From the NCBI GenBank assembly GCA_039654915.1, contig CM077597.1, positions 25,704,001 to 25,768,000 of the forward strand: a stretch of 64,000 nt of DNA, written 5' to 3'. Shown here piece after piece: positions 24,100 through 54,026 of this stretch. Source of the stretch: Aquilaria yunnanensis. Lineage: Eukaryota; Streptophyta; Magnoliopsida; Malvales; Thymelaeaceae. A program made the translations under genes and the position numbers. The first letter of the stretch is position 1, and every line of letters starts with the position of its first letter. The notes under the pieces were generated by a model, which worked only from the letters and a program-made list of their open reading frames with translations, did no database searches and had not been told where the DNA came from.

Positions 24100-25440
24100 A
24101 TGGCTGCTAATGGACGTGAATGGATGTACCAGAGGACAGATACAGATGGATATATGAATTCTGCGTTTATGGCTGGTGTGAATGAGTTTCTACAGTTTGC
24201 ATTTAGTGAGAAGGAGTCAGAAATGATTAAATGTCCTTGTCGTAAATGTAATAACAGATTTTATCGAATAGAGCTGAAAGTGAGAAAGCATTTGTTTCGA
24301 TATGGATTTATGCCAAACTATTGCATATGGCACTGTCACAACGAACAATATGATAGCAATCTGCACAATTTCAATATGGCCCGTAGCTATTTTCCATCGC
24401 AGTTATATGGAGGGACAAGGGGAGAATCAAGTAGTGTAAATGCGTATGAACAGATGGTATGTGAATCAATGGGTCCGTTATCATCGAATTTAGGATCTGG
24501 AAATAGTGAAAGAATGTTGGTGGATGAAGAGTTTATCGATGCTGATGTCGAAGAACCTGATAATGGCAGTGATAATAATGATAATGTGTTCGATGTGTCT
24601 GAAATGAGAGAGGGGTTACCTAATCCGACCGCACAACAATTTTATAATTTGTTGGACGATGCAAATGCACCATTGTGGGATGGGTGCACTAAACAAACAC
24701 GGTTGTCTGCAATGACCCAATTGTTAAATTGCAAAAGTGAGTTTAATATGACAGATCGTTGTTTCGATAGAGTACTGGAGCTTATGAAAGAAATGTTGCC
24801 TGAAAGTAATAGACTCCCATCCACCCTATATGATACGAAACAACTCACAAAAAGACTTGGGTTGCCTTATATAAAAATTCATGCATGTGAGAATAACTGT
24901 ATGCTATTCTATCGGGAAGATGAGAAATTAACACATTGTCGTGAATGTAGAAGCAGTAGATATAAAGAAAGAGTAACTTCCGAAAGGAAGACGTTGATTC
25001 CGAAAAAATTGTTACGGTATCTACCAATAACAAGCAGGTTGAAGCGCTTGTACATGATATCAAAAACAACGACTCACATGACTTGGCATGCTTATAATAA
25101 TTCATGCAATGATGGAAGTATGGGTCATCCATGTCAGTCTGAAGCGTGGCGTCACGTAGATCGAACATTCCCATCATTCGCTGATGAAATTAGAAATGTT
25201 AGGCTCCGATTATGTACCGATGGATTTAACCCGAATAATGTTGTTGGTGGAACATACATGATATGGCCAATCTTTATAGTTGTTTACAATCTTCCGCCAG
25301 AACTATGTATGAAAGAACCCTTCATCTTTATGACTCTCCTCATTCCTGGTCCTAGAGCACCAGGACGCAACATTGATGTATTCTTACGACCATTGATTGA
25401 GGAGCTCAAAACTTTATGGTCGGAAGGGGTTGTTACATGG
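24100..25440 (+). pseudogene. CACTA transposase (TNP2-like), 5' part
   Basis: 447 codons from ATG 24100 to the insertion point. Residues ~1-80 form a transposase-associated domain with conserved cysteines (KCPCRKCNN) and a final WHCH stretch. The TNP2 domain follows, with the cysteine cluster CENNCMLFYREDEKLTHCREC and an RLRLCTDGFNP motif near its acidic catalytic region. The frame is cut at TGG (25438-25440) by the solo LTR and resumes in the same frame at 54027 after one TSD copy. The enzyme would bind the termini and cut and join the element. The region shown is open; loss is due to insertion and to a truncated C-terminus. Confidence 0.9.
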
Positions 25441-26361
25441 TGTGGCAACGTGCGGGTCTTTTTCGGGAGTCGCCACCAATCGGTTTTCGTTCAGGTCGAT
25501 TGGATACCTTAAAATATGGTCTGCGAGAGTTCGGGGATCGGGAGTACGGTTACGCTAAAGCAATATTGTTATAGCGCCCAAAATTGGCACCTTAGTTGAT
25601 TTTAATTTTGTTTTACTTTGCTTTTAGAAAATTTTCAGTTAATTTTCAGTCTAGAAGTTTTAACCGAATTAATCGGATGTGGGTTTTTGGTAATTAATTT
25701 GTATAGAAATTTGATATTTCCGAACCATGGACTCTGCCGAGTCATTTGGACACGGAAGTTTTTAATTCCGAACCATGGACTCTGCCGAGTCACCCGGACA
25801 CGGAATGTTCATGATATTTTAAATAATTTAATCCATATCGTAAAATATGGATTTTTATCTTTTGTATTTATTTAATTTATTTAATTAAAAACTTTGATAT
25901 TTTCCAAACCGTAGATCCTGCCGGATCATCCGGATATGGAAATTATTTAATGTTAATTAATTATTTAATTCTTATTTATTATAGAATTAATTATTAGTTT
26001 AATGATTATTTTGTAATTCTTTTGTTTATGAAATTTTAGGTTTTTTGTTAATGATCTAAAAATTTATTTTGTTTATTTTTTTTTCTTATATTTTTCTTCT
26101 TTTCTTTTTCTTATCTTTCCTTTTTTTTGATTTTTCTTGTTTAATGAAGGATATTTATTATTTAAAGAATTACTCAATTTATAAAAGAATTAAAAAAATA
26201 ATTAATTTTTTATTTAATAAGAAGTTAATTTAAAGGAATCAAAGAGTTTAAAAATAAAAATCTTTGATCATGGTACGGGGCGTTGTTACTCAGCCGGACC
26301 CTCTTCACCAGGTGAAGCAGCTCAAAAGCGGGCACGAGACAGTTTCCAGCCAATATACCAT
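25441..26361 (-). mobile_element. Solo LTR of Ogre-type family, left part
   Basis: Begins TGTGGCAACG right after the TSD CATGG (25436-25440) and matches the start of the LTRs at 26362 and 47361. It is interrupted at 26361 by the Ogre-type element (TSD ACCAT) and continues at 51409. Together the two parts make one ~3.53-kb LTR with no interior, hence a solo LTR. It contains three hairpin repeats. Confidence 0.92.
25718..25942. repeat. Three covarying hairpins in solo LTR
   Basis: Units at 25718-25757, 25766-25805 and 25901-25942. Each has an outer stem (TTCCG/CGGAA, or TTTCCA/TGGAAA in the third), a middle stem (CCA/TGG, or CCG/CGG) and an inner stem (GACTC/GAGTC, or GATCC/GGATC) with a TGCC loop. 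A fourth unit is at about 52030-52070. Confidence 0.85.
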
Positions 26362-26638
26362 TGTGGCAACGTCGGGTTGGGTCGTTTTCGGGAGTCGCCA
26401 CCAATCGGTTTTCGCTCAGGTCGATTGGATACCTTAAAATATGGTCTGCGAGAGTTCGGGGATCGGGAGTACGGTTACGCTAAAACAATATTGTTATAGC
26501 GCCCAAAATTGGCACCTTAGTTGATTTTAATTTTGTTTTACTTTGCTTTAAAAAAATTCAGTTAATTTTCAAACTAGAAATTTTAACTGAATTAGTTGAA
26601 TGTGGATTTTTGGAAATTAATTTGTATAGAATTTTATA

Positions 26639-26860
26639 CTTCCGAACCATGGACTCTGCCGTGTCATTTGGACACGGAAGATTTTGATTCCGAACCATGG
26701 ACTCTGCCGAGTCATTTGGACACGGAATTTGGTGAAATTTTAAACAATTTTATCCATATTGTAAAAATATGGATTTTTATCTTTTTATTTAATTTGTTTA
26801 TTTTAAAAAGTTTGATATTTTCCAAACCGTAGATCCTACCGGATCATCCGGATATGGAAA
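26639..26860. repeat. Covarying hairpins in 3' LTR
   Basis: Units at about 26639-26679, 26688-26727 and 26819-26860, with a fourth at about 28223-28265 (GATCC/GGATC with a TGGC loop). The first unit here has GTGTC in the inner right arm where the other LTR has GAGTC, a mismatch private to this LTR. Confidence 0.85.
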
Positions 26861-26974
26861 TTGATTTATCGTAATTATTTAATTCTTATTATTATGAAAT
26901 TAATTTTTAAATGGTAATTCTTTTTGTTTATGAATGATTTTTAATACTAACTAAAAAATTTATCTTTATATTTT

Positions 26975-27360
26975 TTACTTCTTTTTTTACTTTCTTTCTT
27001 TTTCTTCTTTTTTTTACTTATTTTTACTTCTTTTTTTTAATTTCTTTTAATTTTTTTTCTTTTCTTTCTTTTTTATTCTTTTCTTTGTTTCTTTTCTTTT
27101 TCTTTTTCTTTCTTTTATCTTTCTTTTCTTTTTCTTATATTTCCTTTCTTTTCTTTATCTTATCTTTCTTTTATTTTTCTTTCTTATCTTTCTTTTATTT
27201 TTCTTGTCTTTTCTTTCTTTCTTTTCTTATCTTATCTTTTCTTTTATATTTTTTTTATCTTTCTTTTCTTTCTTATCTTTCTTTTATTTTTCTTTCTTAT
27301 CTTTCTTTTATTTTTCTTATCTTTCTTTTTTTTCTTGTTTACTTTTTTTGTTTTCTTGTT
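26975..27360 (-). repeat. Pyrimidine tract in 3' LTR
   Basis: About 385 bp of almost pure T/C on the plus strand (CTTT-type units), so purine-rich on the element strand. Long open frames here are compositional artefacts. The partner is at 47975-48359. Confidence 0.9.
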
Positions 27361-28539
27361 TAATGAAAGATATTTATTATTTTAAAGGATTACTCAATTT
27401 ATAAAAGAATTAAAAAAAATAATAATTAATTTTTATTTAATAAGAAGTTAATTTAAAAGAATTAAAGAGTTTAAAAATAAAAATTTTGATCATGGTACGG
27501 GGCGTTGTTACTCAGCCAGACCCTCTTCACCAGGTGATGCAGCTCAAAAGCGGGCACGAGACAGTTTCCAGCCAATATACCATGAACTAAAAAAATTTTT
27601 ATTTTTATTTTTATTTTTTATTATTTTTTTTTATTAAGAGAATCAAAAATTTTAAACAAAAGAAGAAAAGTTTTGATATTTATTTAATTTATTTTTGGAA
27701 AAAAAGATTATTTAACCGAAAACTTATATGTATTTTAAAACAAAAGTCTTGATATTTTTATTTTTATATTCTTCTTTGTTTGATGAAAGATTTTTTTTTT
27801 AATTTTAATTTATATTTCTGAAAATATATCTAATCAATAAGTCAAAAATATTTAAGAGAAAATTCAATTATTTTTGTTTTATTTTGTATTATTTTGAAAT
27901 TATTTGATTAAGATTTTTATAAAGGAAACAAAAAGTTATATCTTTTAATAAGTAAAATATTACTGAATAAAATATTAACCCAAAATTTTTATTCTTTTCA
28001 TTCTTTTCATTAATAAAGAAAACTAAAAAAAAATTATATTTTAAAAGAATAAAATATTATTGAAAAATATTAACTCAAAAATTTTACGCTTTTTATTCTT
28101 TTTAATAAAGAAAACTAAAAAAATTATATATTAATAGATAATTAATATATTAGTCTAAAGCTTTTTTTTTTATTTTTTATAAAGAAAAAAAAATTTTATT
28201 TATATATTTTATTTTAAAAATATTTCCGAGCCATGGATCCTGGCGGATCATTTGGTCATGGAGTTTTAATTAATTTTTTTTTATTTCATTAATTATTAAT
28301 TTTAAAGATGCATTAAAAGAATGATTTTATGTTTATTTATTTATTTATTTTATTTTTGAATTATTTCATTATGTTTGTTTATTAAAAGGAATAAAAACTT
28401 TGTTTCAAAATAAAAAAAGTAATTTTTATTAGCCTTTAGAAAATTATTCACATAAAATTCCTTTTTTTATCTTTTAATCATAAAAAAATTCAATTAATAA
28501 AGTGGGGCTTTTTGGCCATCCACTTTAATAACACAATAA

Positions 28540-29200
28540 TAATAGAAGTTAGCACAATTAATATAGTTAGATTAGTTGGATTAGTTAGTTAATAACAATA
28601 AAAAAAAGGTTAGTAAAAGTTATATTAAATTAATTAACAACAATAATAAAAATTAGCGAAGTTTAATTAAATTAATTGTTAACAACAATAATAAAAAGTT
28701 AGTCAAGTTAATTAAGTTAATTAATTACAACAAAAATAAAAGTTAGACAATTTAATTAATTTAATTAATTAACAACAATAATAAAAGTTAGCCAAGTTTA
28801 ATTAAGTTAATTAATTAACAACAATAAATAAAAATTAACCAAGTTTAATTAAGTTAATTAATTAACAACAGTAAATAAAAGTTAGCCAAGTTTAATTAAG
28901 TTAATTAATTACAACAATAATAAAAGTTAGTCAATTTTAATTAAATTAAAAGTTAGCCAAGTTTAATTAAATTAATTAATTAACAACAATAAATAAAAAT
29001 TAGCCAAGTTTAATTAAGTTAATTAATTAACAACAATAAATAAAAATTAGCCAAGTTTAATTAAGTTAATTAATTAACAACAATAAATAAAAGTTAGCCA
29101 AGTTTAATTAAGTTAATTAATTACAACAAAAATAAAAGTTAGACAATTTAATTAATTATTAACAACAATAATAATAAAGGTTAGTAAAAATTAGCAAGTT
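28540..29200. repeat. A/T-rich tandem array in 3' LTR
   Basis: Irregular units of about 45-55 bp built on 'agttagccaagtttaatta', 'agttaattaattaacaac' and 'aataataaa'. The partner array is at 49540-50190, and a diverged one lies in the solo LTR at 52440-52930. Confidence 0.85.
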
Positions 29201-29416
29201 AGTTGTTAGTTGCTAATAACAAAAAAAAAAAAAAAGGTTAGTAATAATAACAATAATAAACAAATAAATAAACAAGTAAAAAAATAAATGAGTTAGTTAA
29301 TTAATTTTCTGCAAAGACAAAATAAAAAGGTTAGTGACCTAATAGAAAGAAATTGAAAAGATGATGGGTGAAACAAGGGTTTACCCTTTTAGTTTTGAAT
29401 TTTGAATCCCAGGAAA

Positions 29417-29719
29417 TGAGAACGACGACGGCGCGAGGGGGGAAAGGGAGGGGCAGCTAGCGGCACGGCCAGGGGCAGGGGGCGACGGCGTGGGGGGGGG
29501 GGGGGGGGGGGGGCCGGCGGCGAGGGCGGCGCGGCGGCGGGCAAGGGCGACGCGGCGGCGGGCAAGGGTGGCGCCGGGCAGGGGCGGTGCGACAGGAGCA
29601 GAGGGAGCTGGGCGACGCGGCGGGCTGGGGGAGAGCGCGGCGGCGGCAGGTGCTGCGAGGGGAGGGCACGGCGGCGGCGAACGGCGTAGGGCGGCGGCGG
29701 CGGGCGGCGAGGGGCACGG

Positions 29720-29756
<37 letters not shown>
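29417..29756. repeat. GC-rich block, G-run and GA microsatellite in 3' LTR
   Basis: GGCGGCG-rich sequence with an uninterrupted run of 22 G (29492-29513) and a (GA)n stretch at about 29721-29754. It sits immediately downstream of the LTR TATA box on the element strand. Arginine- and proline-rich open frames here reflect composition. Confidence 0.85.
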
Positions 29757-29757
<1 letters not shown>

Positions 29758-29905
29758 ACAGCAGTGAAAAAAAAAAAATTTGGCTTTCTAGGGAAGAAGG
29801 GAAGAGGGCTGGGGCTAAGGGCTGTAATTTTCTCTTTTTTTTTTTAAAACGGAGCTCTAAGTTTTTTTGCTATTTTTTTCTGTGTTCAGCACAAAATTTG
29901 GGGGG

Positions 29906-29914
29906 CTATTTATA
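29906..29914 (-). promoter_or_regulatory. TATA box of 3' LTR
   Basis: The element strand reads CTCTATAAATAGCCCC, conserved at 50911-50919 and in the solo LTR at 53519-53527. Confidence 0.75.
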
Positions 29915-30398
29915 GAGGAAGTTTAGCTGAACTGTTGATGGATAAATTAATAAAAAATTTCAAACTTATCTCTTAAATTGGTAAAATGACAATTTTAGTC
30001 CTTTACGTCTCTCAGCCTCTGGATAAGTTCCTGAAGCTTCTGATTTTGACAATTTTGTCGTTTTCTGTCAATTTGAGCCAAAAACGTCGGCAGGCTCAAA
30101 ATTTTATGTGACAAACTACCAAATGCTCCTGGAACTTTCAGAATTTGTCAATTTTACCTGAAACTTCTCAATTTTGTTATTTTTATCTCAAACTTTTTAA
30201 TTTTGTCATTTTTATGGAGTTTTCTTTTTTCCTTTCAAACATACACATATACACACATATATCAAATCTTCACAAAACAAAACAAAAAAATATATTTTAA
30301 ACTAATTAAAAAAATTTAGTAATAATAATAACAATAATAATAATAATACATTTTTTTATTTAATTATTTTAATGGCCGGACGAAATTGGGTGTCAACA

Positions 30399-30411: not shown

Positions 30412-30504
30412 GCATGCTTCATGGGACATGATGTATGCAAAGTTAGTTACCAAATTTCGTCCAGCTTAGCTAGGCATTGAAAACCTTCTCGCCGCCTAAA
30501 CTCT

Positions 30505-31868
30505 GAGGTTTAAGGAAAGGTCCTTAGAACCTCTAACGATAGGAAAGGTTCTATCGTTGTAAGATGGACTGAATGATTGATTGTTTGTTTGAGGTTTAAA
30601 GAAAGGTCCTTAGAACCTCTAACGATAGGAAAGGTTCTATCGTTGTAAGATGGACTGAATGATTGATTGTTTGTTTGAGGTTTAAGGAAAGGTCCTTAGA
30701 ACCTCTAAGATAGGAAAGGTTCTATCGTTGTAAGATGGACTGAATGATTGATTGTTTGTTTGAGGTTTAAGGAAAGGTCCTTAGAACCTCTAAGATAGGA
30801 AAGGTTCTATCGTTGTAAGATGGACTGAATGATTGATTGTTTGTTTGAGGTTAAGGAAAGGTCCTTAGAACCTCTAACGATAGGAAAGGTTCTATCGTTG
30901 TAAGATGGACTGAATGATTGATTGTTTGTTTGAGGTTAAGGAAAGGTCCTTAGAACCTCTAACGATAGGAAAGGTTCTATCGTTGTAAGATGGACTGAAT
31001 GATTGATTGTTTGTTTGAGGTTAAGGAAAGGTCCTTAGAACCTCTAACGATAGGAAAGGTTCTATCGTTGTAAGATGGACTGAATGATTGATTGTTTATT
31101 TGAGGTTAAGGAAAGGTCCTTAGAACCTCTAACGATAAGAAAGGTTCTATCGTTGTAAGATGGACTGAATGATTGATTGTTTGTTTGAGGTTTAAGGAAA
31201 GGTCCTTAGAACCTCTAACGATAGGAAAGGTTCTATCGTTGTAAGATGGACTGAATGATTGATTGTTTGTTTGAGGTTAAGGAAAGGTCCTTAGAACCTC
31301 TAATGATAGGAAAGGTTCTATCGTTGTAAGATGGACTGAATGATTGATTGTTTGTTTGAGGTTTAAGGAAAGGTCCTTAGAACCTCTAACGATAGGAAAT
31401 GTTCTATCGTTGTAAGATGGACTGAATGATTGATTGTTTGTTTGAGGTTTAAGGAAAGATCCTTAGAACCTCTAACGATAGGAAAGGTTCTATCGTTGTA
31501 AGATGGACTGAATGATTGATTGTTTGTTTGAGGTTTAAGGAAAGGTCCTTAGAACCTCTAAGATAGGAAAGGTTCTATCGTTGTAAGATGGACTGAATGA
31601 TTGATTGTTTGTTTGAGGTTTAAGGAAAGGTCCTTAGAACCTCTAACGATAGGAAAGGTTCTATCGTTGTAAGATGGACTGAATGATTGATTGTTTGTTT
31701 GAGGTTTAAGGAAAGGTCCTTAGAACCTCTAACGATAGGAAATGTTCTATCGTTGTAAGATGGACTGAATGATTGATTGTTTGTTTGAGGTTTAAGGAAA
31801 GATCCTTAGAACCTCTAACGATAGGAAAGGTTTTATCGTTGTAAGATGGACTGAATGATTGATTGTTC
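30505..31868 (-). repeat. 16-copy tandem repeat, unit ~86 bp
   Basis: Units of 84-86 bp, nearly identical. Each holds an inverted repeat (AACGATAG/CTATCGTT arms, 8-bp loop) and the near-palindrome GGTCCTTAGAACC. It lies in the 3' untranslated part of the Ogre-type element, a usual place for tandem arrays in this lineage. Confidence 0.95.
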
Positions 31869-32042
31869 TCGAGGCAAAGGTTCCATCCTTAAAACCTCGG
31901 ATTGATTGATTGATTTCGAGGCAAAGTTTCCATCCTTAAAACCCCGATGATGAAAATTGATTGTTTTCGAGGCAAAGGTTCCATCCTTAAAACCCCGATG
32001 AAAATTGATTTTGAGGCTAAGGAGCTTTCCTTAGGACCTCGA
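31869..32042 (-). repeat. Diverged tail of tandem array
   Basis: Three to four shorter units sharing 'cgaggcaaaggttccatcc' and 'ttaaaaccccgatg', related to the main array by the paired 'aggtt...aacct' arrangement. Confidence 0.75.
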
Positions 32043-32557
32043 GCGAAATTTATATGAAAACAATTAAAATTGGAATAATTTTCTTCGAAAGTATGAATTT
32101 TCATAATAGGTGAGTGCAAAAATTTAAACTTCGATAAGATGAGTGAATCTTGATGATGACAATAACACTGACAAATTATGTAAAGGGAACGGATGTTTGG
32201 AATCAATATTCAAGGTTCATCTAATATTTTCTTCAGTAAATATAGATTCCCTTGTGAGATATGTCATCCGAATAAGGTTAAAACTTAACTACCCCAAAAT
32301 GTTATGCCTAGTAGATCTAATAGGATGCGTCTCAAGAGTAACAAAAATTACTCTTTACTCAACCATTCCAACCTAAAGGCATTGTCCTATGGTTCTAATA
32401 TCAGCATCGACGAAACTATCTTATAAAAAAAAGAAATTCCTTGAAAAGAAAAACTGAAACGCGAAAGAAAATGCTGATAATAAAACTAAAGGACAAGAAA
32501 AACGGATCAGATCGCTTCTTTCTTCCACAATACTTCAACAGGGTGAGTAGAGGACCA
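32043..32557. other. No gene seen; downstream flank of LOG-like ORF
   Basis: AT-rich, probably the 3' UTR of the LOG-like gene. Short frames are unsupported. Confidence 0.5.
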
Positions 32558-33187
32558 TTATGGGAGTGAACTGGTCGGGAAAGACTGTCGTGTCCAGTCT
32601 ATCTGAATCATTGCTGGATCTGGTTCAGGAACAAAAGCTTGTATTTTATCTAGCAATTCTTCAGCAGTTGTTGCGGATATTATGATTCGCCGTGCCACTC
32701 TTGATATGAAATTCTTCTGCATAGCATAATCCATAAAAGCTATCAGACCTGTAAAGAAATTGTTAACATTTAAAAGCCCAATGGGTTTCTTATGCAAATT
32801 AAGTTGGGCCATGGAAGCAATTTGAAAGACTTCTCCCAATGTGCCAAAACCACCTGGTAGAGCGATAAAAGCATCAGCATTTAAAAGCATTTGTAACACA
32901 CGCTCTTGCAAATTTTTAACCACTAATTCTTCTCCAATCGTGCCCCCAGAAACAAATTTCAAAGGTCCAGGGATGATGCCCAAAACTTGACTTCCTCCTA
33001 AAGATGCTGCTGATGCTACACCTCCCATTAATCCGACACTACCTCCTCCATAAACTAAATGTATTTTTCGCTCAGCTAATACTCTACCCAAATGGTTGGC
33101 TGCCTTTAAATACTCTTCATCTTTTCCAGGAAAAGCCCCAGAAAATACACAAATACTTCGGGATTTACGAGTTGGGGTTTTCTCCAT
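32558..33187 (-). CDS. LOG-like cytokinin riboside 5'-monophosphate phosphoribohydrolase
   Basis: About 209 residues from the ATG at 33187. The frame is open up to 33274, but the 29 extra residues are unlike the family and would lie upstream of the TATA box at 33221-33227. LOG enzymes cut ribose 5-phosphate from cytokinin nucleotides to release active free bases in the cytosol. Visible family marks: the N-terminal 'SICVFSGA' strand, nucleotide-binding 'YGGGSVGLMGG', the arginine in 'LQERVLQM', the PGGFGTLGE signature (PGGxGTxxE) and 'KPIGLLNV'. Length matches plant LOGs, but there are no introns where host LOGs have several, which suggests capture through RNA. It lies inside the Ogre-type element, same strand as pol. 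No stop or missing catalytic residue is seen. Family call is firm; activity is inferred. Confidence 0.9.
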   Translation of the reverse strand: MEKTPTRKSRSICVFSGAFPGKDEEYLKAANHLGRVLAERKIHLVYGGGSVGLMGGVASAASLGGSQVLGIIPGPLKFVSGGTIGEELVVKNLQERVLQMLLNADAFIALPGGFGTLGEVFQIASMAQLNLHKKPIGLLNVNNFFTGLIAFMDYAMQKNFISRVARRIIISATTAEELLDKIQAFVPEPDPAMIQIDWTRQSFPTSSLP

Positions 33188-33220
33188 TCCTATCCTTATC
33201 CTTGTGAGAAAAGAGGATAT

Positions 33221-33227
33221 ATTTATA
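33221..33227 (-). promoter_or_regulatory. TATA box of LOG-like gene
   Basis: CTCTATAAATATATCC on the minus strand, only 34 bases before the ATG at 33187, so the leader would be very short, or transcription starts at more than one point. Confidence 0.55.
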
Positions 33228-33274
33228 GAGATGAAGAGATAAGGCAATAATTTTATTTTCAAGAGTGGATACAT

Positions 33275-33665
33275 TATTGCCAGCTATACACAGTAGTCAC
33301 GAGTATGACTCTGGTCAGGTATGGGTACACTATCGTTAAAAGAGGAGGAAAATTTTCAAAATAGCTGCTAGCATGTACAGTAGTCACTACTGTAGCTTAC
33401 GTCAGGAGTAGGTACGTGATTGTTGGAAGGGAAGGAAAATTTCAAAAGTGGCAGCTATATACAGTAATCATAACTGTATCTCATGTCAGGAGTGGATACA
33501 TTATCGCTGAAAGGGGAGGAAAATTTCAAAAGCGACAGCTAGTACGTACAGTAATCGTGACTTTGGTTCACGTCAGGAGTGGATACATTATTACTAAAAG
33601 GGGAGGAAAATTTCAAAAGCGACAGCTAGCACGTACAGTAATCGTGACTTTAATCCTCGTCTTCC
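33275..33665 (-). repeat. Tandem repeat upstream of LOG-like gene
   Basis: About four and a half units of roughly 85-90 bp, each containing 'ggaggaaaattt(t)caaaa', 'acagtaatc/gtg' and 'gtcaggagt'. On the minus strand two units carry TGACGT, the core bound by plant TGA-type bZIP factors; the other two have TGACAT and TGACCA. Related sequence occurs singly downstream of each cysteine-rich ORF, so the array grew from that spacer. Confidence 0.8.
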
Positions 33666-33700
33666 ACTGGCTTTGCGTCCAGTAATGGCTTCAATGCTTT

Positions 33701-34264
33701 CTATGAATCGGTGATTTGCATCTCATCTAGCTTTCTCACAAACTGGCAAACAGGGTCGTTTAGGGTCAGATTCCCAAGACTGTAACGATCTCGTTCTTTT
33801 TGGAAAATTACCCATAATCCAACAACCTCAAATTGCACTATTCCGCAAGAATGCGCTTCAAGAACCTCTCGAATATCTTCTAGAGATTCCTTACGCAAGC
33901 CATTCTTAATGAATCTTATTCTATCATTACGATTTCTGGTGATCACTCCTGGAGCACGACATTTATTGCCGCAAATCCACCATCCACAATTATGACAAAC
34001 GCCTAGCCTTTTTGCTCTTCTTTTTTTGGCATAAGCGCTTTTACCAAAGCCGGGCATACGGGGAAAGAACGCTTCGGGAACTTCACCAGCTGAACGAACC
34101 TTAGCTTCAATTAGCCACCGCACATTATCAGGAATGCCTTTGTGCATAAATACTCTGAATCGTTCACATCTAGCTTGATAAATCTTTTTAAGAACATTTA
34201 TTGGGAAGGAAGGAAAATACTTTCGTAGGGCGGAAAGAGAAGACTCCATTGATGAAGGAGGCAA
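33701..34264 (-). CDS. Cysteine-rich basic protein, cargo copy 1
   Basis: 187 residues; a second Met at codon 6 aligns with the start of the other three copies, so the true start may be 34249. A conserved N-terminal ~65 residues is followed by GKSAYAKKRRAKRLG, a strongly basic nuclear-localisation-like patch running into CHNCGWWICGNKC (Cys spacing C-x2-C-x4-C-x3-C), then an amphipathic C-terminal ~80 residues. The 'G-K-S-x-Y-A-basic-LG-x-C-x2-C' layout resembles the cysteine-rich nucleic-acid-binding proteins of carlaviruses. Family assignment is from memory of pattern, not from a search. Divergent copy: GNK replaces NTK. No stop inside. Confidence 0.75.
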   Translation of the reverse strand: MPPSSMESSLSALRKYFPSFPINVLKKIYQARCERFRVFMHKGIPDNVRWLIEAKVRSAGEVPEAFFPRMPGFGKSAYAKKRRAKRLGVCHNCGWWICGNKCRAPGVITRNRNDRIRFIKNGLRKESLEDIREVLEAHSCGIVQFEVVGLWVIFQKERDRYSLGNLTLNDPVCQFVRKLDEMQITDS

Positions 34265-34308
34265 AGAAAGAAATTAGTGATTGTAGAAAACGAAAATAAC
34301 TAACACAT

Positions 34309-34315
34309 ATTTATA
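34309..34315 (-). promoter_or_regulatory. TATA box upstream of cargo copy 1
   Basis: CACTATAAATATGTGTT on the minus strand, 45 bases before the longer start and 60 before the second Met. The block around it is conserved upstream of copies 2 and 3. Confidence 0.65.
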
Positions 34316-34465
34316 GTGATGAAAGGGATAATGCGTTAATTACACTTACAGAAGCAAGTACATTATTGTCAAAAGAAAAGACAAATGACAGCTTATATGT
34401 ATAGCAATCATGACTGTGGCTCTCATCTTCCACTGATTTATATCTAGTAATGGCTTCAATGCCTT

Positions 34466-35014
34466 CTATGAGTCTAGGACTTGCTTCCTATCCAGTTTTC
34501 TTACAAGCTGGCAGACAGGGTCGTTTACAGTCACATTCCCAAGACTGTAACGGTCTCGTTCTTTATGGTAAGTCCTCCACAATTTGACAATTTGACCTTG
34601 CACTTTTCTACAAGAATGCGTTTCAAGAGTCTCTCGGATATCTTCCAGAGATTCCTTACGCAGGCCATTCTTAATGAATTTTCTTTTATCTTCACAATTT
34701 GTGGAGATGTATCCTAAAGAGCGACATTTAGTATTACAATTCCATCGCCCACATTTATAACACACGCCTAGTCTCTTTGCTCTTCGTCTTTTGGCATAAC
34801 GGCTTTTACCTAAACCGGGCATGCGGGGCATAAATGCATCTGGAACTTCACCCGCCAGACGGACCTTAGCTTCAATTATCCACTGCACATTATCGGGAAT
34901 GCCTTTGCGTGTAAAAACTCTAATTCTTTCACATCTAGCAAGGTAGATCTTTTTAAGGACTTTTATTGGAAGGGAAGGAAAGCATTTTCGCAGTGCAGAA
35001 AGAGTAGAATCCAT
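34466..35014 (-). CDS. Cysteine-rich basic protein, cargo copy 2
   Basis: 182 residues, open. Basic patch at residues 75-81; Cys 85, 88, 93 and 97 (CYKCGRWNCNTKC). Nearly identical to copy 3 over the first ~130 residues, then divergent, which suggests gene conversion or unequal exchange. It lies in a tandem unit of about 0.8 kb with its own upstream TATA box and a conserved downstream spacer. Role unknown; nucleic-acid binding is inferred from the basic/cysteine module. Confidence 0.75.
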   Translation of the reverse strand: MDSTLSALRKCFPSLPIKVLKKIYLARCERIRVFTRKGIPDNVQWIIEAKVRLAGEVPDAFMPRMPGLGKSRYAKRRRAKRLGVCYKCGRWNCNTKCRSLGYISTNCEDKRKFIKNGLRKESLEDIRETLETHSCRKVQGQIVKLWRTYHKERDRYSLGNVTVNDPVCQLVRKLDRKQVLDS

Positions 35015-35128
35015 TGATGAGAGAAGAATTTGAGAGAAGAGGGAAATGAATCAGTAGGAGACTGGAATAACCGACTTTAGAAGTCACGGGGTATCTTACC
35101 CGCTGGTTAATCAGAAGGAAGAACACGC

Positions 35129-35135
35129 ATTTATA
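35129..35135 (-). promoter_or_regulatory. TATA box upstream of cargo copy 2
   Basis: CACTATAAATGCGTGTTC on the minus strand, 115 bases before the ATG at 35014. Confidence 0.65.
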
Positions 35136-35296
35136 GTGATAAAAAGGGATAACGTGTCGATTACACTTAGGGGAGCATGTACATCTGTCAAAAGAAAATG
35201 CAAACTTCTCCAAATATAACAAACTGTATGTACAGTAATTGTGACTGTGGCTCACATCTTTCACTGATTTATGTCCAGTAATGGCTTCAATGCTTT

Positions 35297-35845
35297 CTAT
35301 GAATCGGTGATTTGCATCTCATCTAGTTTTCTAACAAACTGGCAAACAGGGTCATTAAAAGTCAGATTTCCAAGACTGTAACGATCCTGTTCTTTACGGA
35401 AAGTCCACCATAAATCCATAATTTCCCATTGCACTATTTCACAAGAATGTGTTTCAAAAGTTAATAGGATATCTTCCAGAGATTCCTTACGCAGGCCATT
35501 CTTAATGAATTTTCTTTTATCTTCACGATTTATGGAGATGTATCCTAAAGAGCGACATTTAGTATTACAATTCCATCGCCCACATTTATAACACACGCCT
35601 AGTCTCTTTGCTCTTCGCCTTTTGGCATAACGGCTTTTACCTAAACCGGGCATGCGGGGCATAAATGCATCTGGAACTTCACCCGCCAGACGGACCTTAG
35701 CTTCAATTATCCACTGCACATTATCGGGAATGCCTTTGCGTGTAAAAACTCTGATTCTTTCACATCTAGCAAGGTAGATCTTTTTAAGGACTTTTATTGG
35801 AAGAGAAGGAAAGTATTTTCGCAGGGTAGAAATAGTAGAATCCAT
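35297..35845 (-). CDS. Cysteine-rich basic protein, cargo copy 3
   Basis: 182 residues, open. Same four-cysteine module and basic patch as copy 2, but the last ~45 residues resemble copy 1 (ending KLDEMQITDS). It is thus a mosaic of copies 1 and 2. Element-strand orientation. Confidence 0.75.
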   Translation of the reverse strand: MDSTISTLRKYFPSLPIKVLKKIYLARCERIRVFTRKGIPDNVQWIIEAKVRLAGEVPDAFMPRMPGLGKSRYAKRRRAKRLGVCYKCGRWNCNTKCRSLGYISINREDKRKFIKNGLRKESLEDILLTFETHSCEIVQWEIMDLWWTFRKEQDRYSLGNLTFNDPVCQFVRKLDEMQITDS

Positions 35846-35925
35846 TGATGAGAGAAGAATTTGAGAGATGATGGAAAGGAATTAGTTATTGAAGGAAACT
35901 TAGATAACCGACTGGAAGAACATGC

Positions 35926-35932
35926 ATTTATA
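35926..35932 (-). promoter_or_regulatory. TATA box upstream of cargo copy 3
   Basis: GCTATAAATGCATGTTC on the minus strand, 81 bases before the ATG at 35845. Confidence 0.65.
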
Positions 35933-36091
35933 GCGATGAAATGGATAACGTGTCGATTACACTTACGGGAGCAAATACATTATTAAAAGAAAAATGGAAA
36001 ATTTTAACTATGATAAATTGTATGTACAGTGATTGTGACTGTGGCTCACATCTTCCACTGGTTTTACGTCCAGTAACGGGATTAACGGCTT

Positions 36092-36640
36092 CTATGAGTC
36101 GAGGATTTGCTTCCCATCCAGTTTTCTTACAAGCTGGCAAATAGGGTCGTTTAACGTCAGATTCCCGGGACTGTATCGTTCTCGTTCTTCATGAAAAATG
36201 CTCCATAAATCGAGAAGTTCACGTTGCACGGATCCACAAGAATGCGTCTCAAGAGTCAATTGGATATCATCCAATGAGTCCTTACTCAGGCCATTCTTAA
36301 TGAATCGTATTTTATCTTCTCGATTACCAGAGATCATCCCTAAAGAACGACATTTAGTATTACAGGTCCAGCGTCCGCATTTATGACAGACGCCTAATCT
36401 CTTCGCTCTTCGCTTTTTGGCATAAGAGCTTTTGCCTACACCAGGCATGTGAGACACAAATGCCTCTGGGATTTCACCTGCCAGACGAACCTTAGCTTCA
36501 ATTAACCACCGCACATCTTCAGGGATTCCTTTATGCATCAGAGCTCTTAATCGTTCACAGCGAACTTGGTAGATCTTTTTGAGGATGTTCATTGGGAGAG
36601 AAGGAAAATATTTTCGCAAGGCAGAAAAAGTAGGATCCAT
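36092..36640 (-). CDS. Cysteine-rich basic protein, cargo copy 4
   Basis: 182 residues, open, the copy nearest integrase. Module CHKCGRWTCNTKC with basic KKRRAKRLG before it. It differs from the others across its length, so it is probably the oldest branch. Its upstream region keeps part of the conserved block (an 'accgactt...agtcacgg' stretch) but lacks the clear TATAAAT seen at the others. It could be driven by a different promoter or be the least expressed. Confidence 0.75.
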   Translation of the reverse strand: MDPTFSALRKYFPSLPMNILKKIYQVRCERLRALMHKGIPEDVRWLIEAKVRLAGEIPEAFVSHMPGVGKSSYAKKRRAKRLGVCHKCGRWTCNTKCRSLGMISGNREDKIRFIKNGLSKDSLDDIQLTLETHSCGSVQRELLDLWSIFHEERERYSPGNLTLNDPICQLVRKLDGKQILDS

Positions 36641-37935
36641 TTTCTAGGAGAAAGTAAAAGAAAGGAGGGAGGAAATGATCAGTTATTATGGGCAACTGAG
36701 AGAACCGACTTGAGAGTCACGGAGTACCGTATCCGCCGCTTAACCGGAAAAGTGAATCCTACTTTATTTTGATGTGATAGATATTCCATCCAGCTGACGT
36801 CGATTCAGTCCTTGATTATTGAATCCATTGTCCGCTTTTGACGAATTTTCAACGACAATATTTCTTGATGTCTGCCTTATCTTTGACGATAGCTATCACT
36901 CATCTTGGATGCTGCTAAGCTGGCATCAATTCTGTTCTTTTAGGTGTAGCCTCAATTGCCAGGCTTTTGACGATATTGTATGCTTTATCCTTGGATTCCT
37001 GATGGGGCTGGGTCCAGCGTATTAGCTATGCGTCCAATTAGTAAGAGCTGATGTCATTAAGATCTCAGCTTATACTGCTGCAATCATGCTGCGGACATGC
37101 TTTTCATTTGATCCCTGTTATGTAAAAGCCATGCATGCATGATGTGAAATGCATGAATGCAAGGCATGTGTAACTGATGGTTTTTTTTTTTTTTTTAATC
37201 TAGCTCTTCATGTCTTTGCTTTACTTTACTGGATCTTCTTTGTGATTTCCTTCTCGGACTATTATTGAATCTCTTTATGCTTTCCAGCTGTTGTCCATTG
37301 TCTCAAAAGCCCAACTCTGTTCAAAAATCCTCTTTCCTTGCCTTATTTTTGAATTTTGACCTCAATTTTCTTTAATGCCCGCCTCATATTTTATGCTTCT
37401 CTAGATAATTGTCTCTGTTGAAATATTCGCGAGCATGATTCTTTCCTGCTGACATAGACATGTTAAGACTTCTGAAATGATCATTCAGGCTACCACCAAG
37501 GCTATCTCCCAAAGATTTGTTACTCCTTCTTCTTTGTTAGCCTATGTTCTGTGCTGCTCGCAAAGCAGGACCTCAATCTTACCTGTTTTAATTCATAAAG
37601 CTTATCAAAGTAATCTACGGTCTTTGTTTTTTTCTAAGTTTTAATTATTACTATTCTTCCTTCAAAAGTCACAATTTATTGCACACTTAAGGCTAGTAGG
37701 AATGTGAGATTTGAAGGAAAAGAACTGGATAGAAGCGACTTTAGCATTTTGAACGTGAAAATCTAAGGTAAGTTAAAGAGAATTGGATTTTATTTATGGG
37801 TAAAAGAATATGAAAATCTTGGGTACAGATAGATAATGAAAGTGTAAGGGAAGAAAGCTCTCTTTGACAACTTTGATCAAATAAACTTTGGTAACCCTGT
37901 ATCCACTTCTCCCCTTCTGTTCGAAAATTTCTTCA
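36641..37935. other. No gene seen; spacer between integrase and cargo
   Basis: AT-rich. A poly-T run lies near 37175-37196, and loosely repeated 'ttttgacga' and 'gcatg' motifs occur. I find no coding sequence or clear promoter. Confidence 0.45.
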
Positions 37936-40900
37936 TTATGCAAAGTATTTCTTTACTGCATCCGAATTTACTGGCTTCGGTAATTCTCGTCCATCCATTT
38001 CTGTCAGAATTAGTGCCCCTCCTGAAAATGCTTTCTTCACGACATATGGCCCGTCATAATTTGGTGTCCATTTTCCTCTTGAATCGTGTTGCATGGGTAA
38101 AATTTTCTTGAGCACTATGTCACCTTCGTGAAATTGTCATGGGCGAACCTTTTTGTTGTAAGCACGAATCATCCTTCTTTGATAGAGTTGCCCATGGCAG
38201 AGGGCTATCATTCTTCTTTCATCAATTAGATTTAATTGCTCGTATCTAGCTTTGACCCATTCTGCTTCTCCTAATTGAGTATCCATTAGTACCCTTAATG
38301 AAGGAATTTCAACTTCGATGGGCAATACAGCCTCCATACCGTATACCAGAGAAAAAGGTGTTGCTCCAGTAGAAGTACGGGTAGAAGTTCTATAAGCATG
38401 CAGTGCAAAAGGTAACATCTCATGCCAGTCCTTGTAAGTGACGATCATCTTTTCAACAATTCTCTTGATATTTTTATTGGCCGCTTCTACTGCACCATTC
38501 ATCATCGGTTGATAAGGTGCTGAATTGAGATGCTTGATTTTGAATTGCCGGCACAAAGCCTGCATCATTGCATTATTCAGGTTCGTGGCATTGTCTGAGA
38601 TGATACACTCTGGCGGTCCATAGCGACAAATGATTTCTTTCTTAATGAACCGGCATACTACCTTTTGAGTTACGCTTGCATAAGACACAGCTTCTACCCA
38701 TTTAGTAAAGTAGTCAATTGCAACTAGGATGAATTTGTGACCATTGGAAGCTTTAGGGGTAATCGCTCCAATAACATCGATTCCCCACATGGCAAAAGGC
38801 CAAGGTATTGCTGTTACATTAAGAGGAACAGGTGGAGCTTGGATCTTGTTGGCATATATTTGGCATTTGTGACATTTTCTTACGTGATTGACGCAATCAC
38901 TTTCCAATGTGAGCCAATAGTAACCAGCCCTCATTATTTGTCTTGCCATGGTATGACCACTAGTGTGTGCTCCACATATTCCAGAATGAACTTCTTCCAT
39001 GATCTTTCGTGCTTCATGAGTATCTACACAGCGAAGTAGCATCGAGTCTGGGGTTTTCTTATAAAGTATGTCTAGGTTTAAAAGAAAACCCATTGACAAT
39101 CTTCGTAGAAATTTCTTGTCATTTTCTGATACTTCTGGTGGATATACTCTTTCTTGGAGGTATTTCTTGATATCGTGATACCAAGGCTTTCCATCCAATT
39201 CTTCTTCGATGCTCATGCAATAAGCTGGAGAATCTATTATTCTCATTTCGAACACAGGAGTATGCTCGGGGTCACTGATCTTGTACATAGCAGCCAAAGT
39301 AGCTAAAGCATCCGGTATTTGATTATCTTCCCTTGGAAGATGATGGAAGCTTATACTGTTGAATTTTCGAGCCAAGTCTAGTATGAGCTTTTGGTAAGGG
39401 ATCAATTTTGAATCCCTTGTCTCCCATTCTCCGTTGATTTGATATATGACTAATGCGGAATCCCCATAAACTTGGAGATCTCGCACTTTCAATTCCAGTG
39501 CCATTTGGAGTCCCATAGCACATGCCTCATACTATACTATATTGTTGGTACAAGCAAATGTAATTTTTGCTGTAAGAGGGAATTGCTCTCCACTTGGAGA
39601 GATGAGTATGGCTCCAATCCCTTGTCCCAAAGCATTAGATGCTCCATCGAATGCCATTTTCCATGTTTCATCATCTTTATCGACTTCCTGTTCTATCGTC
39701 ATTATATCTCCATCAGGAAAGTCCATTCTCATGGGCTCATAATCCTCCAATGCTCTATCAGCCAGATATTCAGCGATCACACTTCCTTTTACGGCCTTTT
39801 GGGTGACATACTGTATGTCGTATTCAGATAACAGCATTTGCCATTTTGCAATCCTGCCTGATAAAGCTGGTTTTTCAAAAATGTACTTAATGGGATCAGT
39901 CTTGGAGATTAGCAATGTGGTGTTGTTGAGCATGTAGTGTCGTAGTCGGTGTGCTACCCATGCAAGGGCACAACAGGATTTTTCTACTATTGAGTATTTC
40001 GCTTCATATGTGGTAAGCTTCTTGCTCAAATAGTAAATTGCATGCTCTTTCTTGCCTGTCTCATCACGTTGACCCAATACGGATCCTAATGAAGAATCCT
40101 GTATGGATAAATATAGAATCAACGATTCTCCAGATCGGGGTGGTACCAAGACTGGTGGATTTGATAGATATTGCTTGATTTTCTCGAATGCTTCTTGGCA
40201 TTCGTTATTCCACTCGATCGGATTGTTCTTCTTCAGTGATTTGAAAAGAGGTTCACACTTGGATGTCAATTGTGAAATGAACCTTGCTATGAAGTTGATT
40301 CTGCCCAGAAAACTTCTTACTTGTTTTGGAGTCTTCGGGGGTTGCATTTCTTGTATTGCTTTGACTTTACTCGGGTCAACTCGAATCCCATCCTTGCTGA
40401 CCATGAAACCCAATAACTTTCCTGAAGAGGCTCCAAAAATACATTTGGCAGGATTCAACTTCAGTTGATATTTGCGAAGTCTATCGAATAGTTTTCTTAG
40501 CACTTTTAGATGCCCCTTAGCAATGAAAGTTTTGGCGATCATGTCGTCTACATATACTTCAATTTCTTTATGCATCATGTCATGGAATAATGCAACCATG
40601 GCTCTTTGATATGTAGCACCAGCATTCTTTAACCCAAAAGGCATCACCTTGTAGTAGAAGGTACCCCAAAGGGTTATAAAGGCAGTTTTTATCATATCAT
40701 CTGGATCAAGTTTGATTTGATTGTATCCAGAGAAGCCATCCATGAAGGAAAAATAGGAGTTTCCTGCGGTGTTATCCACCAGCGTATCAATGTGAGGAAG
40801 TGGGAAGTTATCTTTAGGACTGGCTTCGTTCAATGGCCGGTAGTCCTGACAAACTCTTAGTTTCCCGCTTTCTTTCTTTTCGACTGGAACAATGTTAACC

Positions 40901-41365
40901 ACCCATTCTGTATATTCAGCGACCCCAAGGAATCCTGCATCCCACAGCTTTCGAATCTCATCTTTCACTCTTAAGATTAGATCCGGCTTTAATCTTCGTA
41001 ACTTTTGTCTGACAGGCTTCGCCCCAGGTTTCAAGGGTATTTTGTGTAGTACTATGTCTGAGCTTAAGCCAGGCATGTCTTGGTATGACCAAGCAAACAC
41101 ATCCATATATTCTTTCAATAAGTGGACTAATTCTTCTTTTTCTTCAGGAGGGAATAGAGTGCCAATCTTGACTTCTTTTACATTCTGACTGTCTCCCAAG
41201 TTAAATGCCTCAGTTGGTTCTTGACTTGTTGCTCTTTCTTTTTCATCTCGCTCGATCATTTTTAATAGCTCAGGAGATATTTGAAGATCTTCGTCATCCG
41301 AGTCGGTAGTGTTTACAGGATTATCAAAGTTCATTCTTTTATTGTCATCAAAGAGAGTTTCAGGT
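37936..41365 (-). pseudogene. Ogre-type pol: RT, RNase H, second RNase H, integrase
   Basis: Second exon of the polyprotein, open from the splice acceptor (41365) and containing an ATG at 41334. RT has YVDD at 40543-40554. A degenerate connection RNase H follows, then a second, archaeal-type RNase H (about 39230-39660), then integrase with an HHCC zinc region (about 38870-39000), a D,D-E core and a C-terminal tail to the TAA at 37936-37938. Two stops break it: TAG at 39532-39534, at the codon where the catalytic glutamate of the second RNase H is expected, and TGA at 38137-38139 in the integrase tail, where CGA (Arg) would be one transition away. Frame is otherwise continuous. This copy likely cannot make integrase. 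Confidence 0.92.
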
Positions 41366-41548
41366 CTGCATTATTCAGAGGAAAAAAAAATGGCAAGAAT
41401 AAGATGGATGCAAACTAGTACTTTATTTATAGTGTGCATAAATCACAACTTTATTGGAATAAAAAGCAATAACTAAAAGGTTCACTTAAACAAAGACTAC
41501 ACCCTATTGATTGAACCTTTCTTTAGGAGGTTTTTACTATTGGATTAC
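41366..41548 (-). other. Putative intron between protease and pol
   Basis: 183 bp. The donor GTAATC overlaps the gag-protease stop codon; the acceptor is a T/C-rich tract ending ATGCAG. Removing it deletes the stop and joins gag-protease to pol in one frame (phase 2, completing a lysine codon). An intron at exactly this place is a known trait of Ogre elements. Donor, acceptor and frame are seen; splicing is inferred. Confidence 0.8.
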
Positions 41549-44500
41549 TTTGGAAAGCTTTCGATTATAACAGGCAGTTCTATCGCCTCCCAATTGTTCA
41601 GCACATCCCGTGGGCCACAAGGTTGAACAAGCTCCTCCTCTTCAGGTGAATCGCTGATGATTGCCTGAATAGAAAGACTTTCAAAAGACTTGTTGATTTT
41701 GATAGTCAGCTTGCCTTCATTGTCATTTTTTGGAATGAGACCACCACTCACGAACGTTTCGGTGATTTCAGGGATATCCAGATTTCTTTCCTGGAGAGGA
41801 TGCCCTGTTAATCGTGCAATCCTCTTTTCTCTCTTTTCAGCTATTGCCTTCATTTTATCATGTCTTATCGGTGTGAAGCCTAGGCCGTATTTCCCTTCAT
41901 TTGTGGTGATTTTCAATGGTTCTGTGATTCCTTGTAAATCTTGTCCCAGTCCTAACCCTGGTGAGTATCCTTCTTTTATCATGAGTTTGGCAACCATGCG
42001 ACTTGTTTTAGAGATGCTAGGAATGGGTTCTTCTTCATATTCGCTGACATAAGCAGCATTGACAATCTCAAAAGACCTGAAGGAGCAATCAGGTATATTT
42101 TCATTGACTTCGACATATTGAGCATCCGCAGGTCTTGATAGCAGGATGTCTTCTTCAGCGAAGACCGTGATTATCTTTCCTTCAATAATGAATTTCATTT
42201 TCTGGTGTAATGAAGAAGGAATTGCTCCGGCCATATGGATCCATGGTCTTCCCAGCAGGCAGGTATAAGATGGACAAATATCCATGACTTGAAATGTGAT
42301 GTGGAAAAGACAGGGACCAATCCCTATTGGTAGCTCTATTTCTCCAACAACATCTCTCTTCGTTCCGTCAAATGCTCGAACAACAATATAACTGTTGTTG
42401 AGGTATGATGGGTCTAAACCAATCTTATGTAAGGTTTCGAGTGGCATTACATTTAGAGCTGACCCATTGTCGATAAGAACTCTGGCCATAATCCGATCTT
42501 TGTATTTGACCGAAATATGTAGGGCCTTAGAGTGACCCCTTCCTTCTGCTGGTATCTCATCGTCAGTGAATGTGATGAGATTTTGTGCCGTGATGTTGTT
42601 GACGAGGTGGTCAAAATTGTTCACGGAGATATCTTGTTCAACATAAGCCTTATTCAGGACTTTGAGAAGAGCTTCTCGATGAGCATCAGAGCTTAGGAGT
42701 AATGAAAGTATGGAAATTTTTGCTGGCAGGCGGTTTAACTGCTCAACGATACTGTATTCACTTTGCTTTATGAGTTTGAGAAACTCAGTAGCTTGTTCAT
42801 CTGTTACTGCTCGAGGCATCTCTTGCTCTTTAGATGTGTTAATAGGTCCATTTGCTGGATCCGTAACATTCTCCTCTTGTTGGAGCTTGTTCATTTGCTC
42901 GGGAGAATAACACCGACCGCTTCTAGTCATGCCCCCAACTTCTAACGGAGTTGATGTGATGTTAGAAGTATAGTCATAGTTCCATGGAACAGTTTTGTCT
43001 GATTTGTACGGGAATGGCTTTGGAACTTGAATTCTTAAAGGCTTGAGAGCAGATTTTGAGATTGGAATGACTAGTGGTCTTGGCATGATATTGACTTCTT
43101 GTTCTTTAATTATCACATTCACGTCATCCTCTTTATCTGACATAAAAACGATGATTTGGGAGGAGTCCATGAGACTTTGTAGACTTTTACGGAATTCTGG
43201 GCATTCTTGGATAGAATGACTCTTATTGTTATGAAAGTTGCACCACTCCTCATCCTCGACTTCTTTATTTCCAGAACACTTTCCTATGATAATCCCTTCT
43301 TTCACAAGGCATGAATATACATGCTTAAGAGGGGTTATGATATCATTGACTGTTTTCTTCATCGGCCAGTATTCTTCCATCATATTGACTGGTTTGGCTT
43401 GATGAGGAGGCAATGGATTATGAGTGACGTTTGGTTCATCGGAAAAGTCCAACCACTTTGACTCAATTAATTGTTGGACTATACACTTCAATGCTATGCA
43501 ATTTTCCAGTCTGTGGCCCACGGTACCATCATGATATGGGCAATTTATGTTAGGGTCATACCACCTTGGATACGGGGGTTCCAATGGCCTTGTAGGGATT
43601 GGGCGAATAAGTTGACTTTCGATGAGTTTTGGATACAGCTCAGTGTAAGTCATGGGAATTGGTGCGAAGATTTCTCTTGGTCTTGGTGCAGGTACTGGAG
43701 GAGTTGGAACAGGTGGCCGTAACTGATTAGGTCTGTTGGGAGGATAATTGTTGGGTCTATTGGGAAGATAATCATTGGGCCTATTGGGAGGATAATCATT
43801 GGGCCTATTGGTAGGATAATAATTGGGCTTATTGGCAGAATAGGATAGGCGAGGTCCGGTGGCCACAGTGCCCACGAAGGGAATCCCTCTTCCTCTTCCT
43901 ATTTGTTGTATTTCTTCATCTTTTCTTCTGGAAGGTCCTCCTCTTTTCATAGGATCGCTAAAGGATTCAGTAATCTTCCCAGTCCTGATACCATGCTCGA
44001 TCCTTTCTCCAGACATTACTACGTCGGAGAAGTTAGTTGCCGCATTGCCAATAAGTTTGTCATAATATGGGTATTTCAGTGTCTGGACAAACAAAGTGAC
44101 CATTTCTCTTTCTGTCATGGGTGGCTGAACCTGTGCAGCTAAGTCCCTCCACCGCTGCGCATATTCCTTGAAAGTTTCTGGCCTTTTCTTCTCCATGTTT
44201 TGGAGAGTTTGGCGATCCGGAGCCAAGTCCATAACGTGTTTATAGTTGCCGATGAAGGCCTGAGCAAGGTCATTCCAAGTTTTTATGTTCCTTGGACCTT
44301 GGCTTAGATACCACTGTAATGCTGATTTTGTGAGACTTTCCTGAAAAAGTGCGATCCACACCTTTTCATCTTTTGTGAGTGGTTGTAGTCTCCTTAGGAA
44401 CAATGTGATGTGAGTGATGGGATCACTCGTTCCATCGTATTTCACGAAATCTGGCACCTTAAAATCTGAAGGGATTACGACGTCTGGCACTAAGCAGAGG

Positions 44501-47357: not shown

Positions 47358-47637
47358 AGCTGTGGCAACGTCGGGTTGGGTCATTTTCGGGAGTCGCCAC
47401 CAATTGGTTTTCGCTCAGGTCGATTGGATACCTTAAAATATGGTCTGCGAGAGTTCGGGGATCGGGAGTACGGTTACGCTAAAACAATATTGTTATAGCG
47501 CCCAAAATTGGCACCTTAGTTGATTTTAATTTTGTTTTACTTTGCTTTAAAAAAATTCAGTTAATTTTCAAACTAGAAATTTTAACTGAATTAGTTGAAT
47601 GTGGATTTTTGGAAATTAATTTGTATAGAATTTTATA

Positions 47638-50728: not shown

Positions 50729-50762
<34 letters not shown>

Positions 50763-54021: not shown

Positions 54022-54026
54022 CATGG

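Follow-up and report, generated by a model that had tools for sequence, protein, structure and literature searches.

A cassette of virus-type cysteine-rich protein genes and a LOG-type gene in an Ogre-type retrotransposon family of Aquilaria yunnanensis, with relatives in Athila-type elements

We have analyzed a stretch of 64,000 nucleotides from the genome of Aquilaria yunnanensis (GenBank assembly GCA_039654915.1, contig CM077597.1, positions 25,704,001 to 25,768,000 of the forward strand), referred to below as the window. It contains a complete retrotransposon whose long terminal repeats (LTRs) have TG..CA termini. Five open reading frames (ORFs) of 182–238 amino acids (aa) lie between its integrase gene and its 3′ LTR (32558–36640), all on the element strand. 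Four encode cysteine-rich proteins (CRPs A to D) and the fifth a LOG-type protein. An initial annotation, made from the sequence, had described these five ORFs as the cargo of an Ogre-type element, comprising a LOG enzyme and CRPs akin to those of carlaviruses, and the results below support each of these identifications. The cargo region has five ATG-started ORFs of at least 180 aa, compared with a mean of 0.003 and a maximum of 1 in 300 first-order Markov resamplings, which rules out chance ORFs as an explanation of the cargo. The features of the element are as follows.

26362–51403, minus strand: complete Ogre-type retrotransposon, 25,042 bp, with the 5-bp target-site duplication ACCAT on both sides
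47361–51403, minus strand: 5′ LTR, 4043 bp
45045–46739, minus strand: ORF1, upstream of gag, DUF7745 (Pfam)
41545–44856, minus strand: gag ORF with a G-patch domain; the protease is expected here, without a Pfam match
39532–41334, minus strand: reverse transcriptase (RT) and RNase H ORF
38137–39516, minus strand: additional RNase H (RVT_3) and integrase ORF, its frame broken from the RT ORF in the window copy
32296–36756, minus strand: segment homologous to the CRP and LOG block of Athila-type elements, with its 5′ edge at about 36756 and reaching at least to 32296 on the 3′ side
36092–36640, minus strand: CRP A, 182 aa, matching Viral_NABP and Carla_C4
35297–35845, minus strand: CRP B, 182 aa, TATA motif 87 nucleotides upstream
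34466–35014, minus strand: CRP C, 182 aa, TATA motif 121 nucleotides upstream
33701–34249, minus strand: CRP D, 182 aa when counted from its ATG, with a TATA motif 66 nucleotides upstream
32558–33274, minus strand: LOG-type gene, 238 aa, likely start at 33187, motif PGGFGTLGE
30504–31898, minus strand: array of 85-bp tandem repeats in the interval from LOG to the 3′ LTR
26362–30398, minus strand: 3′ LTR, 4037 bp

The domain order supports assignment of the element to the Ogre type (Tat clade of Ty3/gypsy). The hallmarks of Ogre given in excerpts of PMC6317226 are an additional RNase H between RNase H and integrase, and separate gag and pol ORFs. In the window element RT_RNaseH is found in the RT ORF and RVT_3 opens the integrase ORF; the gag ORF ends at 41545 and the RT ORF starts at 41334. 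Ogre elements that have been studied carry an intron in the gap between the two polyprotein ORFs, and an extra ORF upstream of gag, often with the plant mobile domain PF10536. An ORF upstream of gag is present here, and its Pfam name is DUF7745. The G-patch of the gag ORF (41545–44856) is an RNA-binding motif. The two LTRs have 24 mismatches over 4028 aligned positions (Kimura two-parameter distance 0.006), and the element is thus young. In the window copy the RT–integrase frame is broken into two ORFs, one of 600 and one of 459 aa. The initial annotation had set the open cargo against this broken pol. However, an open frame of 1144 codons holds 85 of the 92 scored integrase matches in the genome; the split is therefore peculiar to the window copy, and the contrast fails as a trait of the family.

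All four CRPs exceed the Pfam curated cut-offs for Viral_NABP (PF05515) and Carla_C4 (PF01623), the nucleic-acid-binding protein (NABP) and CRP families of carla-, viti-, tricho-, allexi- and mandariviruses, and they resemble these viral proteins in having a basic stretch and zinc-finger-like cysteines. A homology search found 255 relatives at E ≤ 1, the best 120 of which were listed, with Populus, Rhamnella and Xanthoceras among the sources that have names. Among 59 relatives Viral_NABP matched 50 and Carla_C4 47 (E ≤ 1e-3), and the pattern CX2CX4CX3C occurs in 98 of 110 aligned CRPs. These data support the view that the CRPs are sequence kin of the carlavirus-type NABPs, and the proteins are predicted to be basic and to bind zinc. 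Unlike the viral CRPs, those of the window are encoded in tandem, at 182 aa each, by an LTR retrotransposon within DNA repeated thousands-fold, not in an RNA virus genome. They are therefore best regarded as relatives of the flexivirus NABP/CRP family rather than as viral members of it.

A structural model of the CRP calculated from 110 sequences had pLDDT 66.6 and pTM 0.32; a model from 59 sequences (pLDDT 52) was too poor for structure searching and was discarded. Foldseek comparison of the model with those of viral proteins gave 38 matches at E ≤ 10, none of them at E ≤ 0.001. Of the top 30, three are nameless and 27 come from viruses that we take to be plant flexiviruses; most of these 27 carry the name nucleic acid binding protein or RNA silencing suppressor. 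The other eight comprise one further flexivirus-type protein, p23 of citrus tristeza virus, one unnamed protein and five from unrelated viruses or phages. Nothing resembling the CRP was found among solved structures, the single match having E 1.7. None of the 34 stretches checked in IMG/VR viral contigs was confirmed as holding a CRP relative; among 109 stretches in prokaryote genome contigs one was confirmed (L001, discussed below).

The initial annotation had given most of the cargo genes a TATA box of their own. This stands for CRPs B, C and D, which have a common leader bearing the motif CTATAAAT. CRP A has neither motif nor leader, and upstream of LOG there is just a TATATA at −187 and no CTATAAAT. 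The first ATG of CRP D is at 34249; the ORF listed from 34264 begins with TTG.

The LOG-type protein has matches to PF03641 and to two solved proteins of Arabidopsis, At2g37210 and At5g11950. It contains PGGFGTLGE, an instance of the LOG-type motif PGGxGTxxE, which is found in 108 of its 120 listed relatives. Membership of the LOG family (cytokinin riboside 5′-monophosphate phosphoribohydrolases) is thus supported. Its closest relative, P0121, is 91% identical and all other listed relatives are at most 63% identical. Since P0121 has 204 aa and covers 82% of the ORF, the true start may be the internal ATG at 33187. In a tree of 57 proteins the 54 LOG-type sequences, the window's included, are separated from three host-type LOGs with support of 100/100; the content of this clade is biased, because the other 53 members were chosen among the proteins listed as nearest to the window LOG. 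Dozens of similar, dispersed LOG-type proteins on many sequences come from Reevesia pubescens (P0129–P0240), which suggests a large family of LOG-bearing elements there too.

We then asked how the cassette is distributed in the genome. CRP A has at least 150 scored matches of 98–100% identity, none with stops, and LOG at least 150, each 100% identical across 238 residues; as each list comprises the best 150 only, neither is informative on decay. The unscored first-look candidates (8564 for CRP A, 4045 for LOG and 26646 for integrase) are not usable as copy numbers. A less biased sample was taken through the integrase. For 53 of its 92 scored matches, that of the window among them, the CRP A or LOG lists show a match downstream; of the remaining 39, eight were read downstream for 7.5 kb. 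All eight have four CRPs, arranged A, C, B, D, and LOG lies within the 7.5 kb in six. The expectation of the initial annotation that other Ogre copies carry the cargo was thus realized, and the possibility that it is peculiar to the window copy is ruled out. Because the eight copies share their gene order, separate late insertions are also rejected. Among 30 loci picked through CRP A, the window being one of them, 12 have a D-like third CRP, suggesting that there are three CRPs there; 16 have a B-like one, and two loci have another arrangement. CRP D stands upstream at all 30 loci picked through LOG (window included). The cassette is therefore resident in a young, high-copy Ogre-type family, with some three or four CRPs usually followed by one LOG. 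The interval from CRP D to LOG holds imperfect repeats of about 87 bp (33278–33652 in the window), the number of which varies among copies and sets the distance between the two genes.

In the eight integrase-picked copies 30 of 32 CRP frames and all six LOG frames are free of internal stops. Pooled over the CRPs, 30 changes are synonymous and 29 non-synonymous, against an expected non-synonymous share of about 77% (p 3e-6); in LOG the counts are 37 and 9 (p 1e-15). These p values are too small because the copies are related. The synonymous excess is carried mostly by CRP3, CRP4 and LOG. Pooled pairwise pN/pS is 0.20 for CRP D at the 30 LOG-picked loci, with a stop in one and indels in three, and 0.46 for the second CRP at the 30 CRP A-picked loci, a set that mixes B- and C-like copies; both ratios exclude rows with indels. 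The window CRPs have dN/dS of 0.20–0.53 among themselves. These values suggest that selection has acted on the CRP and LOG proteins.

The same genes are found in another retrotransposon lineage. L001 is a contig of 3330 bp, plant-like in content and filed under a bacterial metagenome-assembled genome. That genome is assigned to Candidatus Nomurabacteria, and the plant retrotransposon genes on the contig indicate likely contamination of the record. On L001 a CRP lies 204 bp behind an integrase ORF, on the same strand, and this ORF lacks an additional RNase H. The CRP is above the PF05515 cut-off and just under that of PF01623; each window CRP has dN/dS of 0.21–0.29 against it. In the integrase ORF (194–1594) Pfam finds integrase domains only, and the preceding frame was judged by eye. 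In Athila elements RNase H and integrase have no further RNase H between them. The contig has no RT, and we take it to be Athila-type from the missing additional RNase H and from features of its integrase. The L001 and window integrases are 32% identical over 374 residues, and the CRPs 71% over 181. P0085, a gene model of Rhamnella, fuses an integrase end (70% identical to L001 over 111 residues, and 23% to the window integrase over 74, E 0.005) to a CRP (70% to CRP A), and P0105, likewise of Rhamnella, joins a CRP-like part to a LOG part. CRP and LOG appear to share contigs in other species too, the same longest-contig values (8723, 4511 and 2128) occurring in both searches.

Athila-type copies also exist in A. 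yunnanensis itself. With the L001 integrase as query, the best 14 of 91 scored matches in the genome are 66–72% identical, all with stops. Two of these decayed copies, L074 and L075, were read for 1.8 kb on the 3′ side. Behind pol each has a broken CRP, with 79% and 72% identity to CRP A in the two copies. In L075 the CRP is followed by LOG, in two pieces and 74–75% identical to that of the window, and L074 holds DNA that directly follows LOG in the Ogre element. Thus Athila-type elements have a CRP directly behind pol, and in some of them LOG comes next; the examples are L001, the Rhamnella models and two decayed copies here. This rules out a cassette exclusive to Ogre, the element type in which the initial annotation had described the combination. 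The LOG-bearing elements of Steinbauerova et al. 2011 are said to have been Athila-like.

Homology to the Ogre element begins at element position 14648 in L074, 14648 in L075 and 14653 in L001. This common 5′ edge corresponds to about 36756 in the window, 116 bp ahead of the CRP A ATG. The integrases are 32% identical where the CRPs are 71% identical, and there is one shared boundary, so the cassette has likely moved from Athila to Ogre. The simplest history is that an ancestor of the Ogre family picked up the Athila block of CRP and LOG with a short leader, and that the CRP was then amplified; the tandem amplification as such is plain from the array. The initial annotation had looked to boundaries as a sign of separate later insertions; a boundary is indeed present, but it indicates one block captured by the family ancestor. 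In a midpoint-rooted tree the L074 CRP groups with the four window CRPs, P0001 and P0005 with support of 100/98. In a separate analysis P0001 is sister to CRP A and P0005 to CRP D, and part of the CRP multiplication thus probably predates the separation from the lineages that gave these two proteins.

The presence of LOG in plant LTR elements is already published. LOG (YgdH) is reported in Citrus LTR elements and, when a filter was disabled, in those of Populus (excerpts of PMC9289625, citing Steinbauerova et al. 2011). Those elements share with ours a LOG-type domain within a plant LTR retrotransposon; the excerpts do not speak of a CRP or viral protein in them, nor of a tandem array or a transfer from one lineage to another. 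The same excerpts describe Ogre-related Ty3/gypsy elements of orchids, similarly giant and with an acquired extra enzyme domain, but there the enzyme is a 2-ODD (m6A demethylase), without a CRP and from a single acquisition in orchids. In Retand elements the TRP28 ORFs are antisense and have another domain (excerpts of PMC11963269), whereas the window cargo is sense and consists of CRPs and LOG. A survey of RNA-virus insertions in plants includes a betaflexivirus replicase-like sequence in cucumber (excerpts of PMC3136472). In the literature searched on the CRP family, with its Pfam names and accessions and with most subscription journals outside the search, we found no report of it in retrotransposons.

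The window holds other mobile elements as well. Two pieces of an older related LTR (about 75–85% identical) flank the young Ogre at 25440–26361 and 51404–54021; its ends and the flanking CATGG suggest a solo LTR that was the target of the Ogre insertion. Outside these lie two parts of a tnp2-family transposase (Transposase_21), at 24100–25512 (profile 1–121) and 54009–54890 (profile 106–210); they bracket the nested LTR and Ogre, which points to an interrupted gene of En/Spm (CACTA) type. A second LTR retrotransposon, at 7710–17553, has LTRs of 2511 bp with 99.2% identity and a gag-pol ORF of 1348 aa with a terminal chromodomain.

What might the cassette do? Viral CRPs have been described as silencing suppressors and pathogenicity factors, and that of chrysanthemum virus B also as a transcription factor that induces hyperplasia (excerpts of PMC12172455). 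From family membership, silencing suppression is predicted for the CRPs and cytokinin release for LOG, and a joint action on silencing and growth is the predicted role that we favor because LOG stands beside a virus-type CRP. The reading to which we give an even chance is that of an accessory cassette in a young Ogre family, likely captured from an Athila-type element, that would dampen silencing through nucleic-acid binding and release active cytokinin. The genes would be expressed from the element mRNA or, for CRPs B to D, from their own TATA sites. The small, basic, zinc-binding CRPs could interfere in the nucleus with silencing directed by small interfering RNA or act on host promoters, and LOG would raise active cytokinin so that cells keep dividing. 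Dampened silencing in dividing cells might then yield more element RNA and more new copies entering the germ line.

Several observations weigh against this reading. The viral kinship is limited to the basic, zinc-finger middle of the CRP and does not extend over its full length, and every viral structure match has E > 0.02 on a model of low pTM. LOG is missing from two of the eight integrase-picked stretches, and in L074, one of two Athila copies, there is no LOG in the 1.8 kb read. The relatedness of the copies affects the tests of selection, as noted above. The initial annotation had named dN/dS as a check, and a value near 1 is not seen overall; CRP1 and CRP2 alone have pN/pS near 0.6 in the eight-copy sample (on 15 and 6 changes), and the second-position CRP at the CRP A-picked loci has stops in 4 of 30 and indels in 2 of 30.

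The CRPs might instead serve replication of the element, as extra nucleocapsid-like chaperones or in nuclear import of the pre-integration complex, while LOG would be a passenger of lesser or regulatory importance. Such a role would suit proteins that are basic, predicted to bind zinc and encoded in sense orientation behind pol, and it is proposed for additional ORFs in reviews (excerpts of PMC7264820). We nevertheless consider it rather unlikely, as the Pfam and structure matches are to plant-virus proteins, many named silencing suppressors, and the strongest synonymous excess is in LOG. We find it improbable that the cassette went from Ogre to Athila, or that both lineages acquired it separately from a third source. 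The branching inside the seven-row clade of Ogre and Athila CRPs is not fixed by the midpoint-rooted tree, and the Athila-type copies read in this genome are two decayed ones; but the same 5′ edge is found against three Athila-type sequences, and Athila-type CRPs occur in other plants and as decayed single copies here, where the Ogre array is young and amplified. That the genes are functionless passengers, an old viral insertion and a captured LOG kept open merely by the youth of many near-identical copies, has precedent in the host genes transduced by LTR elements (excerpts of PMC7264820), but is very improbable given the low dN/dS among the CRP paralogues and against L001, the synonymous excess among copies, and the fact that two lineages and several plants have these genes in common.

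For most accessory genes of plant LTR retrotransposons neither origin nor function is known; this set has recognizable kin on two sides, a silencing-suppressor family of plant viruses and a family of hormone-activating enzymes, with at least 150 gene copies encoding an identical LOG protein. One gene cassette is common to deeply diverged retrotransposon lineages. On a wider view, which we put forward as doubtful, plant LTR retrotransposons and RNA viruses would share a family of silencing suppressors for which the retrotransposons are the old reservoir, the CRP and LOG cassette passing between lineages as a unit and being amplified, and flexiviruses would have taken their NABP from it. It now becomes testable whether anti-silencing and growth-promoting genes serve plant retrotransposons as they serve viruses, and where the flexivirus CRP genes originated.

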